Of a DNA stretch of 64,000 nt, positions 3,381-62,644 are shown in pieces. A program made the position numbers and the translations under genes. The notes beneath the pieces were generated by a model. It did no database searches. It was not told the origin of the DNA and saw nothing but the letters and a program-made list of their open reading frames with translations. Source of the DNA: Cucumis sativus. Lineage: Eukaryota > Streptophyta > Magnoliopsida > Cucurbitales > Cucurbitaceae. Numbering within the stretch: position 1 is the first letter of the stretch; each line of letters starts with the position of its first letter. Where the stretch lies: NCBI RefSeq assembly GCF_000004075.3, contig NC_026659.2:23206272-23270271 (forward strand). The letters run 5' to 3'.

Positions 3381-4219
3381 GGGAAAATAGCAAAAATAAT
3401 TTTAAATTGTTATAATAGCATAACATAAAAATTAGAAAAATAAATAAATGAAACAATCCCTCAAATGCCTCTATCCAATATAAAAAGTATAATTATTTAT
3501 CTAAATCTAAAATACATTGTAATTGAAATAACACATGCTATATAAAAAATCTCTCACTAAAACATAAAGATTAAAATTTGCCATTAATGGAAAGCTCAAC
3601 CTCATACCTGCAAAATTTAAAATCTATTTCAATATCTAAAAGATGCAATTCAATTGAAGTTGGTAATTGCAAAATTGAGACACATTCAATCAAAGGGTTT
3701 GGCTCTACACCTGTCGAACATCGTTGATATTACAATAAAGATGAAATCATGAAATTATACCATAGAATTGAAAACTTATATGCAAGATACGCATCGGTGA
3801 GTTCGTCGTATATTCGAGATTCATTTGAGCTATTCTCTCTTGTTTGCAATAAAAAAAATTCTCTTTCACATTGAGTTTATCTCTTGTTGGTTGCCTCACT
3901 CAAACTCTTTCTTTTCTTTTCTTTAATAAAACCTAAAAGAAAAATATTCGAATAAATTCAAAAATGTCATTGAGGCCTAATTAAATCCTAAAATTTAAAT
4001 TCAAATTTTTATTAAAAATATATTTTCAAATTGTTATTAAAAATATATATTCAAATTTTTATTAACAGTTATATATTACGTGTTATTTAATAAATTGTTT
4101 AAAATATAACAAATTTGAAAATAGTCATTAGCATAAATCTAGCAACAAAATAGCAAATTTAATTAAGATTTACCAAATTTGGATATTGTTTGCAAAATAC
4201 ACTTCTATAATAAGAGAGA

Positions 4220-11878: not shown

Positions 11879-14800
11879 TTAAAGAATGCAACATTTCAAC
11901 ACTAACCCCTTTTGGTCTATTCTTCCATCTTCATTACCTGCAACAAGTATGTCCTTTCAAACTTCAATTCCCTACCCTCTTACCGAAAGAAATAAAAAAG
12001 ATAAGCAACTGAAAGGGCCTTAAAAAATATTTGAGAATCATGAGCAAGTTATTAGCACAACCATCTAGCTTGCCTACAAAAGGAAATCATATTTATCAGC
12101 AAGTGAGGAGGGGCAATGTTTCTTCAAGAATTTCCGAATGAGCTCTAACCAACTAGATATCTAGGATAGTTAGTTATAGCTTGAGACTTCAGCGCTGGAA
12201 AGCGATTTACATTATCCTGTAATTTGCACTTGCAGAGATGATGGATCAAAATTGGAAAGAATAAAAAGGAGAGATTTGAGGAACATACAAGGGGCATGGC
12301 TCAATGGAGCAATTTCTTCTTTGATCTGCACGGTAAGTATGTATGAAGAGTACCACTCCTTGAATTTACTAAAGGGCATGGCCCGAAAGAGATGTTTTAC
12401 CAACTGCCCCAAGCGAGCCACTAACTCCAAAAGTAACAACTGTGGGGACATTTCTCTCAAATTCGACCACATGATGTCACCATCAACATATGAAGCTCCG
12501 TCAAGGACAGATGGTTGATGAGATTGTAAGAATCCTTTATCCTTCCAGATATGGAATCACAGGAGAGCATCTCATGAACCCACCTGATGGATGACACTGG
12601 TGTCACCCCTGATATGCCAGCACGGCAGCACCACTAAAAGCCCCATAAATATCCTCTAATTTAAACAGTTTTTGCTAATATTGGACATTTAAGTTTGGTA
12701 GGCGTAAATGTGTTCCAATAATCAAAGACTAACCAGATGGTTCAGCAAGGTTTTCATGAGGCATTTGGTTTTTTTCCATCTATTACATTAATCCTTTTTT
12801 TTATCCAGCCTTTTCTTCGGTTTGGGCTATTAAACCACCAATTCATCCAAAAGCTTAAGCTAGTGGTTGAAGGCAAATTTAATTATATATCACCAACACT
12901 CCCCCTCACTTGTGGGCTTGAAATATCTGAAAGGCCCAACAAGTGGAAATTGATTTTAATTGGGGAGGAAACGACAATGCAGGGGCTTGAACACAGGACC
13001 TCCCTAGACCACCTGCTCTGATACCATATTAAACCACCAATTCATCCAAAAGCTTAAGCTAGTGGTTGAAGGCAAATTTAATTATATATCACCAACATGG
13101 GCAACCAGGCTGTTCAATTTTCAATTTCAATATAGGTACTCAGTTCGATATTGTATTGCAGAAATGAACCAATTGGTTCAGTTCGATTCTCGATCTTGTT
13201 ATAAATTTATAATGTGGTGTGGTATCCGGTCCCATCCCACCACTCCAAAGAAAAATAATAATAACAAGACCTCACGATGTCCCATGCCAGCTCAAGCAGG
13301 AGATAATGGAAGCACTTTCTTAATAAACATTTCACCTAGACGCTAGAAAATCTGGATTTTGGACTAGGCTGCCACCCACAGCTCCAAGCCTATACACCAG
13401 TGCTCCCACAGGTGAATAATTCTCTATTACACAAATTAAGTAGGAAGGAAATTAATTAAGCAGGATTATCATGCATAAAATATGCCAACTTTGAACATTC
13501 CTCTCACATGCACTAGTTCCTTTTCGATAATTAGAAGTCCTTTGTCTTTACTTGGGTATGCCACCGGGAGCCTGAAGAATCCATAATTTTTCAGGAGTCT
13601 GATGGCACGAGTGATTTGCTTCTAAGGCAGCATATTGATACTGCTGAAATCTCAGTCTTCCAAGAACACCCCATACCTGCTATCTAGATTCAATATGCCT
13701 TGGCAACTTGTTACGAGGATGATGAAAAAAAGATGAAAAGGAAAAAGAAGAAGACATCTTCTGACAAGAGACGGCAGTGAAAAAGGTTATCATCAGGTTG
13801 GATGGGAGATCTCCATTATTTTTTAAAGCTGGTCTTGGTATTGGTGGCCTGAAGCACAGAATTGCTTTTGTTATCGCGATGGAGATGACGGCTAAATTCA
13901 AAGGCATAAGCCTTATGGGTTAGATTTTTATTAGTATAAAGGGGTTGATGAAGTGGCTGGAAACTGTAAGTTCCTATAACGCCCCAAGTTATTGGGTGTA
14001 TATTTCCATACACATTCTGTAAACAGGCTTGTGCTTAAAATGGTCAGAGAAGATAGAATTAAGTCTTGGGAAGCTTATTCTTGGAAGAACTATTTCCAAT
14101 TATTTTCCCTGCACTCCACGGTTTGAAATAGCCCAAAGAACGATTCATATGCCAACAGAATAGCTTGTGATGAGGGTTACCAGAAGTTCAATTTCAAAAG
14201 AACCCCTTTCTCTTTGAAGCACAGGCTCGTGAATGGGCTACTTTTTATAACTTAACCCAACACCAGTTATGTGGAGTTGAACCTTGGATATGTCAATCCA
14301 ATGCACTCGGATGTCTTTTCAATCAGCTTTTACATTTGTACCTAGCAATATAAATGAACCTGACCCTCAATTGCAAACCGAATGCCAAAACCCCTAAAAA
14401 AGTCCAAGTTTTTCTTTTGCACTCGGGTGCCTGTGCTTATTTACACTAGAAACAGAATTAGGATGGAGTTCCCAAGCTTTGCTTTATATGTCAACTGATG
14501 CATTATGCATATCGTTTTGGAGACCATGACCATAATTTATTTTCTTCCACTTCCAATTCATCATGCTCCTGTAGATTGCTCAATAGCTCTGGATTGGCAA
14601 TTGTGCTTCCTCAAGATAGAAACAAGCCGTTTTCCAACTCCTTTGAAGCCATACTTTCAATGATTAAACTGATGGTTAAAAGATTAATGCCATGAATTTG
14701 ATCTAGTAGGAGACGTGAGCAAAAAATAGTCGAACGGTTTTGAGGAGAATATGCAGGAACCTAGATGTTATGGGATATACCTAGATTTCTAGCAACAAAT

Positions 14801-17800
14801 TGGAGTACTAGCTCCAATCAATTTTGCATGCAGATCTTTTTTGTTTTAAACAAATGAAGAGTCATCTTGGAACCTCCTTGACTGGATAGCCTTATTGGTT
14901 GTAATCTTCTTGACTGGACATAGTATATCCATCTTTCCTCAAATACAGTTTTGTTTTTTTTAATAGATAGTTTATCATTAAAGAAGCATGCAAATATATT
15001 AAATATGGTTTATATTCGAAAGAGAGGGATATGCTCTCCATGATGAGAGGTGAATAACTCACCTTCAGAAGGCTGACTTAGTCTCCTGTTCTGGGGAGAA
15101 GTCATTTCTTTCTTCAATTGCATTAATATATCCTCCATTGTATGCTCCCTTTGCCAATTAGCAAGCATGGGGAAAAGGCTTGGTTCCACCTAGTCATACA
15201 GATGGGCCGTCAATTTATTTTCAGTCGCATCATAGAAAAAGTGCATCACAAAATCATCACATACCACCCCAGTTTCTGAATTGACACAGGTCATATTAAT
15301 CCGAGTTTGAAATCTAACATTTGGAGGATTATCAGGATAATCCTGTCCACAGAATAACTTGAGTTGATAGATGCGTCCTTCATGAACAGTCTGCAAAGCA
15401 AGAAGGCAGTGATTCAATTTACAATTTTGTTAGAATGTAACCTAACAAGAGATACTCAAGAACACATAAGCAACCCAAGAAAATTCAAGTTGGAAATATA
15501 TTGAAATATATTCTATAATATCACAAGAATAAATAACAATATAACTCCTAGCCTTTTGAGAGGGCCAGACTCCCAAATTCCCACACAAGGAAATTCTACT
15601 ACAAAATACTTCACATCTTTCCCTAATCCCCTCACCTCCTATTTATAGCAAAATAACCTAGCCTACTTCCTAACTATTTACTAATATGCCCCAACTAACA
15701 ACCATATTAATATTCTCCTAAGAACTCTACTATTTCTATCACTAGGGGTCTTACAAATTTCTTTCATCCCCTCCCAATAATAACAATAAAGAAGAATACA
15801 TCAATTGCCACCGTTGCAATGGAACTGTGATGCTGAAGACAGTCATTTTATCAAGAAGAGAGCAGAAATCAGACTTACCAGTTTTCTTTAATTGTCAATT
15901 TTTAGGTAAAGACAATCAGGATATTAGTAATTGAACTACATTAATAATCAAAACTGAGCACTTTTTGGGAGTTTTTAGGAGGTAGAAACTGAAGATAGAA
16001 TTTACCCAGTAAAAGAACAGAGGAAACACAAAGACCAGAGAATAATGTACTCAGAAGAAAATCAATTCAGATCGTTTAAAAAATCCCAAGAACATAAATA
16101 AGATCAGATGAGATCAGGTGTATCAACTCCAAAATTTTACTCCTTTAGCATGGTAATAACAAGAATGTAGGCTAACTACACACATGCTAAAACCTTCCTG
16201 TGGTGAAGTAATAATCCTATTCAAAATTTAAAATGTTAAAAATGGCATGAAGCTTTTCTTAATCTGCAGATCTCCAGTGGTCTAATCACACATAACCAAG
16301 ATTATGCTCAAATGAGAACTAATTTCAGAATAAAAAAAAAGTACAGGGAAAAACAAAAAGAGCCATACAGAAAAAAGAAGGCCTCAACCAAAGGGAACTA
16401 AAAGAACAACAGAAAACAAAACACAAAAAATTAGAAAAGGGAATTACATAGGAAAAAATATTTTCATCATTGTTTGTCACTATCCATATCAACGTATATA
16501 AAGGCTGATTCAAATGTCATCAGAAACCATAAGAAAAGAGGTAAAAGGGATGAAAAATGAAATTACGTTAGGAGGCCCAATGATAGTTCCCGTCCAAGAC
16601 GCCATATAGATATCATCAGCATCATCCATTCCATAACTCACAGTTCCATCTCCAATTCCTTTTTCACCTCTTTCAAGTTCTTCCAGTAATCTGAAATTTC
16701 GAGGAACTGCACAAAATGAAAATATTGTTAACATTAGAGATTTTTTTAGAAACAACTTTCATTGAGATAAAATAAAAGCGTATAAGGGCGTTATATTTAG
16801 AGTTCATAGTGCAATGTACAAACTTTTCATTAAGATAGTACCAGCAAGTCAATAACCAAGGAGTAAGTCATGGTTTGTCTGAGTCTTATTTTATTTTATT
16901 CTATTCTATTTTATTTATTTACTATTGGAACAAAAGAAAACAAAATTTTGAGTAATGTTCTTAAACATAAAACCAACTCTGGAAACAAAGAGAATGAACT
17001 TCTGAAAACGAAGAGGATAAAGGGCTCATAATTCATAAATAATTGTTTAAGCTCTTACTTCTAAGCTTAAGGTGGAACAAACAAGTATTTTCTATATGCT
17101 TCACATGCCAGCATCATCAGAATAATAAATACAGGCCGTTTCATTTTGTGATTATAGTCAACAATATGACCGTTATAGCAAAAAGTACAATATATTAACA
17201 CCCACTTGATTTGATTATAACAAAAAGTAAAATATATTAACACCCTCTTGATTTGATTATCTCCTGTCAGATCAAACCAAGCCACTCTGCTAAATCAATC
17301 TAACTTATTAATATAACAACATATACCCTCCATCCGGCTTCTTATGAGATTGCTTCAGAAACTACATCTTATCTAACGAGTAAGAAATCCATAGCAAAAT
17401 TAGATTGAAAAGATCGTAAGTCAGCGCAAAACTCCAGCAAGTGAATGAACCCAAGGAATTTCAAACATTGTAACTGTAGTTGAATACAATCACTCGAAGA
17501 AGTAAAGCTGTATGATTAAATCCATAAGCAGAAGTCCAATGTCACAAATAATCAACATTTCCACGAGTCTCTGCTGCTCACACAGCAATCCTCATATAAC
17601 ACCTTCATTTACTGTCATCCAGCCATGACGATCTTTCATAGGTTAATTGACATCTTTTCAATAAGTTACAGATTGTCAGAAAAAAAACATAAAACACCAA
17701 TTTTTAATGAGAAACCAAGAATAAGACAGTAAAGGAAATCAAACAATCAGATTCTCCTTCAAATTATCTGTTTATCTGTTATAACCCATACAACATAATA

Positions 17801-53378: not shown

Positions 53379-56300
53379 TTAACCCTGAGAGACCGCTTTG
53401 GATGAAAGTAACTTCACCCTTCTTGTGAGGTTGCTCATCACATCTATGATAACTGATTTCTTTTGAAGTCTGAACTGGATTGCCAATTTAGATGTTTCGC
53501 TTTCACACTTTTTCAAAAGGGTTTCGTCGTCCATTATCTTGGTCGGGAAGTGTCCCAACGCAATTACACATAAAGCAATTACTGTACGTAATGCAGCTAC
53601 TTCATTTGCAATACCAAGAGGTGCTTCAGCTGATAAGGATTTGAGCACGCTCAAGTCATGCTTCTGTACCATTTCCTCATCAACTGAAAGCAAGACTCTT
53701 AATGCAGCCAATAAGCGACCGTCAACTATTTCTGAACCACCGATGCTCACCTATAAGGAAAATAGAAATTAAGTTGAGAAAAAATAAACTTCTCACCCTA
53801 CTATTTCGGTCTTCTATTCAATTGTTTATCTACCCAGGCCACCATGGGCATGATGTAAAAGACAATTTATAATTTACTTACAGGTGACATCATATAATTT
53901 AAAATCAACTCCCTAGGATAAGTTAGACAAGAAACAAAGATTTATTGTTTAACACTAAATATGTCAAAAGAATGTATTGGATTTTCCAGTTCTTTCTATG
54001 AAAGGAGGTTAGCTTCTAATCATGAGAAGGTTGAACAACTTTTCTCCTTTATCTCCTTACCCCTTCTTGAGATGCTCGTTTTGAAATAAAAATGTTAGTG
54101 ATATATAAGTAAATTTGCCTTAAACCACTAGCTTAAGCTTTTGGGTGAATTGATGGTTTAATATGGTATGAGAGCAGGTGGTCCAGGAAGGTCCTGTATT
54201 CAAACCCCTGCAATGTCGTTTCCTCCAATATTAAAATTGATTCCACTTGTTGGGCCTTTCAAATATTTCAAACCCACAAGTGAGGGAGAGTGTTGGTGAT
54301 ATATAATTAAATTTGCCTTCAACCACTAGCTTAAGCTTCTGGGTGAATTGGTGGTTTAATAAAAAACCATTGGTTATTTCTCATTTGCAAAACCAAAAGG
54401 GTCAGGTAGTGGTCTAGAGAACTAAGGATCGGAGAATATAAAGTAAAGCTAATCTTGTTGATACTGATTTTAGTGACAATAAAATGTTGCTCCAGTGGAC
54501 GGCCGTTTCCTCATGAAAACAATAATTAGAGGTAGAGAACTAAAGTTAAGGGGCGCGAACCTTGAGAAGAGCAGCTTCCCCATGTAGATTTAACTTGGTT
54601 AAAATAAGTCTTTGCCATGGAGCAGGAGAAGAAAAATTTTCTGAAGAAATCCCTGCAACAATGCTAGCAGCTTCTAAGAGAGCTTCATCATATTTTAGCT
54701 CAATGTAATCATATTGATTTGATGGTACCACAAATCCATAATCAAGCAGGAAAAGATCATTGTCCAGACAGCCATAATTTAGTGTTAAAGGAGCGTTTTC
54801 TTCAATTTCGGTCTCTGCTACAACCTGGATTGAAGCAAAAGAAAGGTGAGTGTTAAGACAGAGAATGGAATTAACTTGGCAAGAGGCAGTTTTCTTTTCA
54901 GTGTCCTCAAGCATAAAAATATCAATGGTCAGGGAAACAGAAATCTTCACCTTCACCTTCAACTTCATGGAGGCATCTTGTTCTTGGATAATACGTGCAT
55001 TTGAATTAAAGCTATGATTGCACATATCAATGAGAGGGAGCATCATGGGAACACTGGTTGGAGTACTATCTGTGAGATTTTTACTGTATAAACGAAATGC
55101 CCTTGATGAGACCGCTGCCATTGCCCATCCAAGGGATGATGCATCTACAGTTTGGCCACCAAAAGGGTGATTTTCAGGCTTTATACTGTCAAGAGTACGT
55201 TTGACTTCTTTCTCAAAATCAAGGAGGAAGCGACACCTTTTGTTTACCTGGTTAGCATTTTAATATTCAGCATGAACAGACTTCACATGGTATCAATGAA
55301 AAATGAGATGGAAGTATGAGACAAACAAACGTCTGAAAGGATTTATCTTTTTTCAGACAACAAAACAAATAACCCTAACTATATCTTTATCCATGGTTGA
55401 TTATGGCATCACAGAATGGCTTTCAATCTAACAAATAACTGACCTGGTAAAGAAGAGGAGCATACTGCAAGTTCTTTATGTCATCTCCAGGAAAAAATAT
55501 GGGAACGGTGAAAACTTCAGGGAGATTGCCAATATACGCCCACCAGAAGGATCCAACTTTTGCCCTTTCTTTCAAAAGCTTCAAACCCAATTTCATGGAC
55601 CACAGTTCCTCTGCCAAATACTTCCAATGTCCAATTTATTTGAATTCAGATTAAGATTACATAAAACCTAACGTGAAAAATATGAGGTTATCAACCTCTA
55701 TCAAGTATAAGAGTTTTCTGCTAGATTGATTTTGCTATCAAAAATGAAATACATCAAGCTTTCCATTTGTCAGGTGATATTTGAATTTAAGGAGGGAAAT
55801 ATCAAGCAAGTTTTTTGTTACACTGTTCTTTATTGAATAGGTGTAAATATTGGCCATTAGCTATTAGAATGCAAAATGATCTGATTCTAGCTCCCATGAA
55901 ACGCTTTTACCATGATTGAAAGTCAAAGAAATAAATAGTGAAATTCAACTTTGGTATATCATATTACACAAAGCTTAAAACTCACTAGAATTATAAATTT
56001 TACTCTCTTTTCAGTACTTCATAAATGGAACAGGAAACAAGAATCTTACGAGCTTGTCTTATTTTTTTTCTTCACCAGAATACAACTGTCATTTTCAATC
56101 ATATTCAATGAAAACCTTACGTACAAGCATCAATAGAAATATATACACACACACATTAATTAACCTAATGAGAATGACAAAAGTGCTGTTTAAAGTTCAT
56201 GAAATTAGAAGGTGCTGAATTACAGTTTCAAAATGGTATGCCCGAAAACTATACTCTTGAATGATTTTTATGTGGATATTAGGACATAGTTGGTATTAGA

Positions 56301-62005: not shown

Positions 62006-62554
62006 TTAGCCATTAAACCCTTGCGATCGAGAACCGCTCATCATCATCACTTTAAATTCATCGAAACTAATCATACCATCGCCGTTTTTATCAACGCCAG
62101 TAATCATCTTCCGGCAATCCGCCAAGGAGCAATCATCTCCCAAGCTTTTCAAAACCTCGTGCAATTCCTCGGCAGTGATGGATCCGTTTCCGTCAATATC
62201 GTAAACAGAGAAGGCGTCCTTCAGATTCTCAAGCACCTCATCGGAATCAACGCCCTTAGTGTTGAGTTCGATGAACTCATCAAGATCAATGTAGCCATCG
62301 CCGTCGGCATCGACCTCCTTAATCATGTTCTGAAGCTCTTCCTCGGTGGCGGGCTGACCTAGGCTACCCATAATAGATCCGAGCTCAGAGGAACAGATCT
62401 TACCGTCGCCATTGACATCGAATTTGTTGAAAACTTGCTCGAGTTCAGCGATTTGGGTACGGGATCCGAGAATGGGAAGGGTGGTAGATCCAAGGGGAGA
62501 ATCGGTGGAGGAATGGGATTTCTTCTTACGGGAGAAGAGAGATTTGAAACCCAT
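62006..62554 (-). CDS. Calmodulin-like protein with four EF-hands
   Basis: Single-exon frame of 182 residues, as usual for plant CML genes. Four canonical EF-hand loops lie at 46-57 (DVNGDGKICSSE), 82-93 (DADGDGYIDLDE), 119-130 (DIDGNGSITAEE) and 155-166 (DKNGDGMISFDE); each has acidic residues at loop positions 1 and 3, Gly at 6 and Glu at 12, so all four should bind calcium. A 35-residue N-terminal extension begins MGFKSLFSRKKKSHSS, with Gly at position 2, Ser at 5 and a basic cluster. That could allow N-myristoylation plus electrostatic membrane binding, though Ser is not at the preferred position 6. Family members act as calcium sensors. The start is the first ATG and its leader is open. 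Confidence 0.93.
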   Translation of the reverse strand: MGFKSLFSRKKKSHSSTDSPLGSTTLPILGSRTQIAELEQVFNKFDVNGDGKICSSELGSIMGSLGQPATEEELQNMIKEVDADGDGYIDLDEFIELNTKGVDSDEVLENLKDAFSVYDIDGNGSITAEELHEVLKSLGDDCSLADCRKMITGVDKNGDGMISFDEFKVMMMSGSRSQGFNG

Positions 62555-62644
62555 AATGAGGAGAGAATGAATGAATGAATGAATAAATATGGAAAAAGAA
62601 GGGGGGAAATTGATGGATTAGAGACAAGAAATGGGGGAGGAATT

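Follow-up and report, generated by a model that had tools for sequence, protein, structure and literature searches.

TRIM1 copy A, a 270-bp LTR retroelement, almost certainly belongs to a non-autonomous TRIM family with several hundred copies in the Cucumis sativus genome. Copy A itself is ordinary, a small intronic TRIM within the window (the whole stretch of 64,000 nucleotides analysed here); the notable part is the chimeras and one-sided joins found among its relatives. These rare hybrid copies probably point to a larger element that moves TRIM1. Our overall reading, which we consider likely, is that the non-autonomous TRIM1 is moved in trans by a Copia element and that the chimeras would have arisen via transfer at the primer-binding site (PBS). 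The names TRIM1, LTR1 and INT1 (internal region) are used here for the family of copy A.

In copy A, two identical 71-bp direct repeats start 199 bp apart, and the order on the minus strand is LTR, TGGTATCAGAGC, an internal part ending in AGTGAGGGGGAG, and the second LTR (Table 1). The flanking TGGGC is a perfect 5-bp match on both sides. The initial annotation had described a complete element with identical LTRs, a primer site abutting the 5' LTR, a polypurine tract (PPT) and a perfect 5-bp target duplication (TSD), and all of these were found at the positions tabulated. The 12-mer TGGTATCAGAGC presumably matches the 3' end of initiator tRNA-Met. It is also the PBS printed for Cassandra in the available part of PMC7215508. 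A point absent from that annotation is that the LTR termini are TG..TA and not TG..CA. LTR1 also holds an imperfect palindrome. Open frames crossing copy A reach at most 112 aa, and 270 bp is too short for gag-pol. A tRNA origin of the internal part was considered and dropped, as Rfam gave no tRNA match in 12700–13250 at E up to 1; the lone match there was mir-186, at 18.9 bits against a gathering score of 70.

Table 1. Features of the window and make-up of the chimeric loci. TSDs of chimeras are given as matching positions out of five.
Feature	Position	Strand	Details
TRIM1 copy A, complete 270-bp LTR retroelement	12828..13097	-	repeats, TSD, genome matches
Copy A 5' LTR, 71 bp	13027..13097	-	TGTT...AATA
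Copy A PBS	13015..13026	-	TGGTATCAGAGC
Copy A internal region, 128 bp	12899..13026	-	includes PBS and PPT; no gene recognised
Copy A PPT	12899..12910	-	AGTGAGGGGGAG
Copy A 3' LTR	12828..12898	-	identical to 5' LTR
Copy A TSD, left	12823..12827	.	TGGGC
Copy A TSD, right	13098..13102	.	TGGGC
UEV1-type ubiquitin E2 variant gene	11879..16706	-	exons 16706-16567, 15390-15265, 15189-15063, 11937-11879
Last intron of UEV1-type gene, containing copy A in gene orientation	11938..15062	-	predicted; donor GAAG|GTGAGT, acceptor TTGCAG|GT
TRIM1 copy B, complete, 92% identical to A	54093..54361	+	TSD AAAAA, 54088-54092 and 54362-54366
Intron of SET / Rubisco-LSMT-like gene, containing copy B antisense to gene	53751..54560	-	predicted
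L050, L054			LTR1 joined to TRIM2 internal region
L051, L052			Copia-like, unrelated LTR
L053, L057			head-to-head forms
L055			LTR1 joined to Copia-like internal region
L056			array with internal deletion; further on, LTR1-TRIM2 join
L050			TSD 0/5
L054			LTR1, TRIM2 internal, LTR2, TRIM1 internal, LTR1; TSD CAGAT 5/5
L060			LTR1, TRIM2 internal, LTR2; TSD GTATA 5/5
L062			Copia LTR, TRIM2 internal and LTR2, TRIM1 internal and LTR1; 647 bp; TSD 4/5
L080			Copia LTR, TRIM1 internal, TRIM1 LTR; TSD 4/5
L097			Copia LTR, TRIM1 internal, TRIM1 LTR; TSD 5/5
L100			Copia LTR, TRIM2; TSD 4/5
L107			Copia LTR, TRIM1 internal, TRIM1 LTR; TSD 2/5 as annotated

We searched a genome of 226.6 Mb in 88 contigs. 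With the best 40 of 1,109 candidates scored, TRIM1 gave at least 47 matches, on contigs C1-C7 and C49, and many of the matches listed were 98–99% identical to copy A. A 20-base pattern across the PBS-internal junction occurred at 466 sites with two mismatches or fewer, and its reversed control at none. Besides the two window copies, the census of TSDs and LTRs took in 39 fetched loci, 41 in all, with the array L048 kept out from the start; after removal of L017, L023 and L028 (truncated or arrays), 38 simple copies remain. The TSD was perfect in 31 of these and had at most one mismatch in 33, while pairing flanks across loci gave 4 perfect and 44 with at most one mismatch in 1,406 comparisons. 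Copies without a perfect TSD were L015, L021, L022, L029 (truncated 5' LTR), L032, L034 and L045. Directly after the 5' LTR, 26/38 copies have TGGTATCAGAGC as the next 12 bases; 11 differ from it by one base, and L041 is shifted out of register. The 10-bp flanks differ among the 38 copies, which, with 31 of them carrying their own perfect TSD, shows that the family is not one larger repeat.

These counts, and the hundreds of further sites, bear out the earlier proposal of an independent mobile unit. We also used the flank 13110–14960 as a genome query; it matched itself alone, so this flank revealed no paralogous empty site of copy A, and the idea that 13–15 kb is a repeat was dropped. We give practically no credence to the reading that copy A is no mobile unit but two direct repeats paired by chance, or a piece of some larger repeat; nothing in its support was found, and the hundreds of sites, the perfect TSDs and the lack of a second copy of the searched flank all speak against it. 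The LTR patterns had no match in either the viral_contigs or the genome_contigs collection, and four stretches of copy A sought in the full-text literature gave none.

The initial annotation took the identical LTRs as a sign of recent movement. At a rate of 1.3e-8 per site per year, zero differences in 71-bp LTRs bounds the age only to less than ~1.6 My, and identical LTRs alone therefore date copy A weakly. Recent movement finds better support in the family, where LTR pairs are identical in 20/38 copies and many copies are 98–99% identical; the mean of 1.05 substitutions per pair corresponds to ~0.57 My at the same rate. The LTR pair of copy B differs at 5/71 positions.

Several variant forms of TRIM1 were seen. 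Tandem arrays sharing LTRs lie at L023:301-1069, L048:178-914 and L028:301-824, with some internal regions reduced to the PPT end. A subtype with an internal duplication (1-123 followed by 69-128) occurs in L076, L080, L081, L084 and L086, and also in L050 and L054; its presence at several sites makes it probable that it has multiplied as a subfamily. In L053:350-407, L057:349-406 and L059:908-963, 3' halves of LTR1 lie head to head as palindromes that meet at AAGCTTAAGCTT; the imperfect palindrome within LTR1 coincides with this meeting point.

Both window copies lie in predicted introns. Our model of the UEV1-type gene covers the recognised exons, with borders set by eye; these four exons join in frame to give a product of 147 residues, of which residues 1–130 match UEV1/Mms2 structures at 1.2e-45. 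The last exon lies outside this match and rests on its splice sites, its frame and a CaaX-type C-terminus. Other plant UEV1 proteins have a short C-terminus, which as a query for the last exon gave nothing convincing, whereas the CaaX-type C-terminus succeeded. This exon model supports a position for copy A in the predicted last intron, in keeping with the intronic location first suggested for it. The host gene of copy B matched Rubis-subs-bind at 7.7e-17 and SET at 0.0059, below the SET cut-off. Elsewhere in the window, ARAGORN predicted a tRNA-Lys(ttt) gene at 2477–2548, and an open frame at 62006–62617 on the minus strand resembles, by eye, an EF-hand (calmodulin-like) protein.

TRIM1 has the features by which TRIMs are recognised, namely LTRs around a short internal part of less than ~1 kb, the expected placement of PBS and PPT, no coding capacity, a 5-bp TSD and a dispersed distribution. 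The available parts of PMC4717578 survey 289 plant TRIM subfamilies, 129 with arrays and 4 from cucumber. TRIM1 resembles the elements described there in its lack of genes, short LTRs, 5-bp TSD and hundreds of copies, as well as in enrichment in or near genes and in tandem and inverted arrays; it differs from them in LTR ends of TG..TA. Those parts of the survey record larger related elements for 11 of the 289 subfamilies, 4 of them putatively autonomous. They were sought as longer relatives, whereas our candidate helper comes from chimeric junctions. The SMART element FRetro129 of grasses, as far as PMC3281118 was available, is near TRIM1 in size and layout (292 bp, with 85-bp LTRs and a 122-bp internal region) and like it has a 5-bp TSD and often lies in or near genes. 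In a comparison by description alone, FRetro129 ends in TGT..ACA and has homologs reported from grasses alone, whereas the TGT...ACA terminus of SMARTs is absent from TRIM1, whose 3' LTR ends in AATA in 38/38 copies. The initial annotation placed 71-bp LTRs at the extreme small end of known elements. They are small, but set no record: the pigeon pea TRIM CcaRetroS9, also very small, is smaller still at 233 bp with 52-bp LTRs (PMC4717578, in the part available). TRIM1 is thus a TRIM, SMART-like in form, and not the smallest known.

Two other families take part in the chimeras. TRIM2 is a second TRIM, with a clean copy at L049:282-613 (TSD ATTTT, by eye); it has ~126-bp LTRs, an internal part of ~80 bp, the PBS TGGTATCAGAGC and LTR ends AACA/AATA. 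It forms chimeras with TRIM1 in L050, L054, L056-L067 and L100. The other is a 4.9-kb Copia family, whose LTR end and PBS occur at 84 genome sites with three mismatches or fewer, chimeras included. The example L109 is 4,855 bp long, with LTRs of ~257 bp identical at 253/255 compared positions and the TSD GGAAT (5/5). It carries the domains gag_pre-integrs, rve and RVT_2 in Copia order, with gag-pol split across two overlapping frames; a second Copia copy, L108, has a 1,041-aa frame, also with Retrotran_gag_2 and the first half of RVT_2. No open full-length element was found in these two copies, the ones read at length. L050:614-3640 contains ~3 kb of Copia-like sequence, bounded on one side by LTR2 and on the other by the end of a Copia LTR (3615-3638), to which the TRIM1 internal region is joined.

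L109 and TRIM1 share 16 bp at each junction: AATATGGTATCAGAGC, spanning LTR end and PBS, and TGAGGGGGAGTGTTGG, spanning PPT and LTR start. LTR1 and the Copia LTR are alike at their ends only, and neither LTR1 nor the TRIM1 internal region as query matched L109 at E 1e-4. We considered TRIM1 as an internal-deletion derivative of L109 and rejected the idea; with contiguous likeness of just 16 bp per junction, confined to the ends, such an origin is not supported.

Nine genome sites have a non-A base directly after the LTR1 end and PBS, and the loci read out from them are L049 to L057. Among the eight chimeras tested for a TSD (Table 1), three match at 5/5 and three at 4/5, and cross-pairing of their flanks reached four or more of five in 0/56 cases. 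Of the remaining two, L107 reaches 5/5 (GTTTC) only on the assumption that the first T of its LTR was lost, and L050 has none. Five of the eight (L060, L097, L080, L100 and L062) combine a TSD of 4–5/5 with outer LTRs of unlike families. L062 is inserted within a gypsy-like reading frame (named by eye). Its left flank as a genome query gave 29 matches including itself, of which L111 and L112 (80–83% identical) reach the site; in both, the right flank follows directly after the left, with a 5-bp overlap and no L062 insert, and they are therefore empty sites for L062.

The arrangement Copia LTR-INT1-LTR1 is found in L080, L097, L099 and L107. Three of these (L080, L097 and L107) have three different INT1 forms and different flanks, which argues for an origin in several events. 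In L099 a PBS and the start of a Copia-like internal region follow LTR1. No 3' end defined by a TSD was found for the LTR1/Copia-internal chimera L055. Further mixed forms, L058, L061, L063 and L065, have a truncated end or no clear TSD.

We then counted the joins in 112 pieces, made up of two from the window and 110 fetched loci (11 were gypsy flanks); 11 duplicates were left out. LTR-to-internal joins within a family numbered 66 for LTR1-INT1 and 6 for LTR2-INT2. Joins of a foreign LTR to an internal region comprised 9 LTR1-INT2, 6 LTR2-INT1, 6 Copia LTR-INT1 and 2 Copia LTR-INT2. A foreign LTR thus stands on the PBS side in 23/95 joins, a proportion that is not a frequency because many of the loci were picked by patterns aimed at such joins; some of the 23 may also descend from one event. 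The 95 exclude L055 and, as judged by eye, L099, where the join is to a Copia internal region. On the PPT side, by comparison, there were 79 INT1-LTR1 and 12 INT2-LTR2 joins and no foreign ones (0/91).

Because the loci had been chosen in this way, the PPT side was tested genome-wide, for the TRIM1 PPT running into TGTTGGAR and for TRIM2 PPT ends running into LTR1. The first pattern had no exact site in the genome, its reversed control having one; among the 112 pieces, the TRIM1 PPT stem leads into TGTTGG 60 times. None of the 35 TRIM2 PPT ends found genome-wide (three mismatches or fewer) runs into LTR1. One feature that could be a counter-example to this PBS-only rule is GGGGGAG before the first LTR1 of L050, which could be a foreign PPT.

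During reverse transcription of LTR elements, the plus-strand strong-stop DNA carries at its end a PBS copied from the tRNA; the 5' LTR is completed only once this PBS has annealed to its complement on the minus strand. Foreign joins confined to the PBS fit an intermolecular form of this transfer. We propose that a helper in trans, most likely the L109-type Copia family, reverse-transcribes and integrates TRIM1 RNA, and that TRIM1 would keep just the signals that Copia reads: LTR ends running TGTTGG...AATA, the PBS of tRNA-iMet type that adjoins the LTR, and the PPT. If TRIM1, TRIM2 and Copia were co-packaged in one particle, the plus-strand strong-stop DNA made from one element could anneal to another element's minus strand at its PBS complement. 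The predicted product carries a foreign 5' LTR in front of an internal region and a 3' LTR that belong to a single family, and this is the pattern seen. Were the step repeated with a plus strand extended through the tRNA end of a complete minus strand, chains like L062 and L054 would result. The head-to-head forms L053, L057, L059 and L064 fall outside this model.

Since such a transfer would need all three elements in one particle, Copia or a close relative would be the likely helper. We think there is a good chance that the helper of TRIM1 is of Copia type, either L109-like with LTRs of ~257 bp or closely related, and we lean, a little less firmly, towards plus-strand transfer at the PBS as the source of the chimeras; both suggestions are drawn from assembled sequence. 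The helper in trans named in the initial annotation was a guess, for which the chimeras provide circumstantial support and a Copia candidate. A word search of the literature for intermolecular plus-strand transfer at a retrotransposon PBS found no match, and a reworded one three papers; this does not imply its absence from print.

The chimeras might instead have formed after integration, through DNA recombination at the short PBS sequence common to elements that lie close together or inside one another, in which case TRIM1 would be an ordinary TRIM with an unknown helper. Recombination is the usual account of multi-LTR TRIMs, and the multi-LTR forms of Wukong are explained in this way in the available passages of PMC4528315. 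It would also suit the tandem and inverted TRIM1 arrays (L023, L028, L048, L056 and L059), the TRIM2 nested within a TRIM1 internal region in L066, and L050 and L107, which as annotated lack a clean TSD. Recombination does not readily account for unlike-family outer LTRs within a perfect 5-bp TSD (L060 and L097), or for the uninterrupted site of L062 in two relatives. The 16 bp shared by TRIM1 and Copia at both junctions serve as a control here, because recombination by homology should join elements at both, yet foreign joins were found on the PBS side only. We therefore regard recombination as unlikely to be the general explanation, though it deserves some weight, and it may account for the arrays, L050 and the mixed forms without a TSD.

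Another alternative is that the template was switched abnormally at R while the minus strand was being made, the mechanism put forward for the Triticeae complexes (PMC1950507). Those complexes, like the TRIM1 chimeras, are TSD-flanked products of faulty reverse transcription, and the part of PMC13317346 available names Veju and BARE-2 as template-switch products. L054, with outer LTRs of one family and a 5/5 TSD, fits this mechanism. In the Triticeae complexes, however, the two outer LTRs match each other and the switching point is R, whereas here the outer LTRs are unlike in 5/8 chimeras and the switching point is the PBS. Template switching predicts identical outer LTRs, and the TSD-flanked copies with unlike ones (L060, L097, L080, L100 and L062) count against it as the only route; we judge it improbable as the source of the chimeras.

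A small TRIM with a larger partner has been proposed before, for Wukong and Sanzang of maize, which are linked by a 12-bp motif in both LTRs; Wukong is larger than TRIM1 (532 bp, with 230-bp LTRs), and the passages of PMC4528315 available contain no Wukong/Sanzang chimeras. On our preferred reading of transfer at the PBS, TRIM1, TRIM2 and one Copia family are linked here. The wider form of this reading is one for which we see the chances as evenly balanced: that chains of PBS transfer routinely join, within one particle, small LTR elements of unrelated families with the Copia that moves them, make multi-LTR TRIM arrays, and allow the helper to be named from sequence even for a TRIM whose LTRs have no likeness elsewhere. 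LTR swapping, reportedly described in soybean by Du et al. in 2010, is a likely precedent for exchange between autonomous and nonautonomous elements. The helpers of TRIMs are mostly unknown and, if our reading is true, mixed-LTR chimeras would let the helper be read from an assembled genome.
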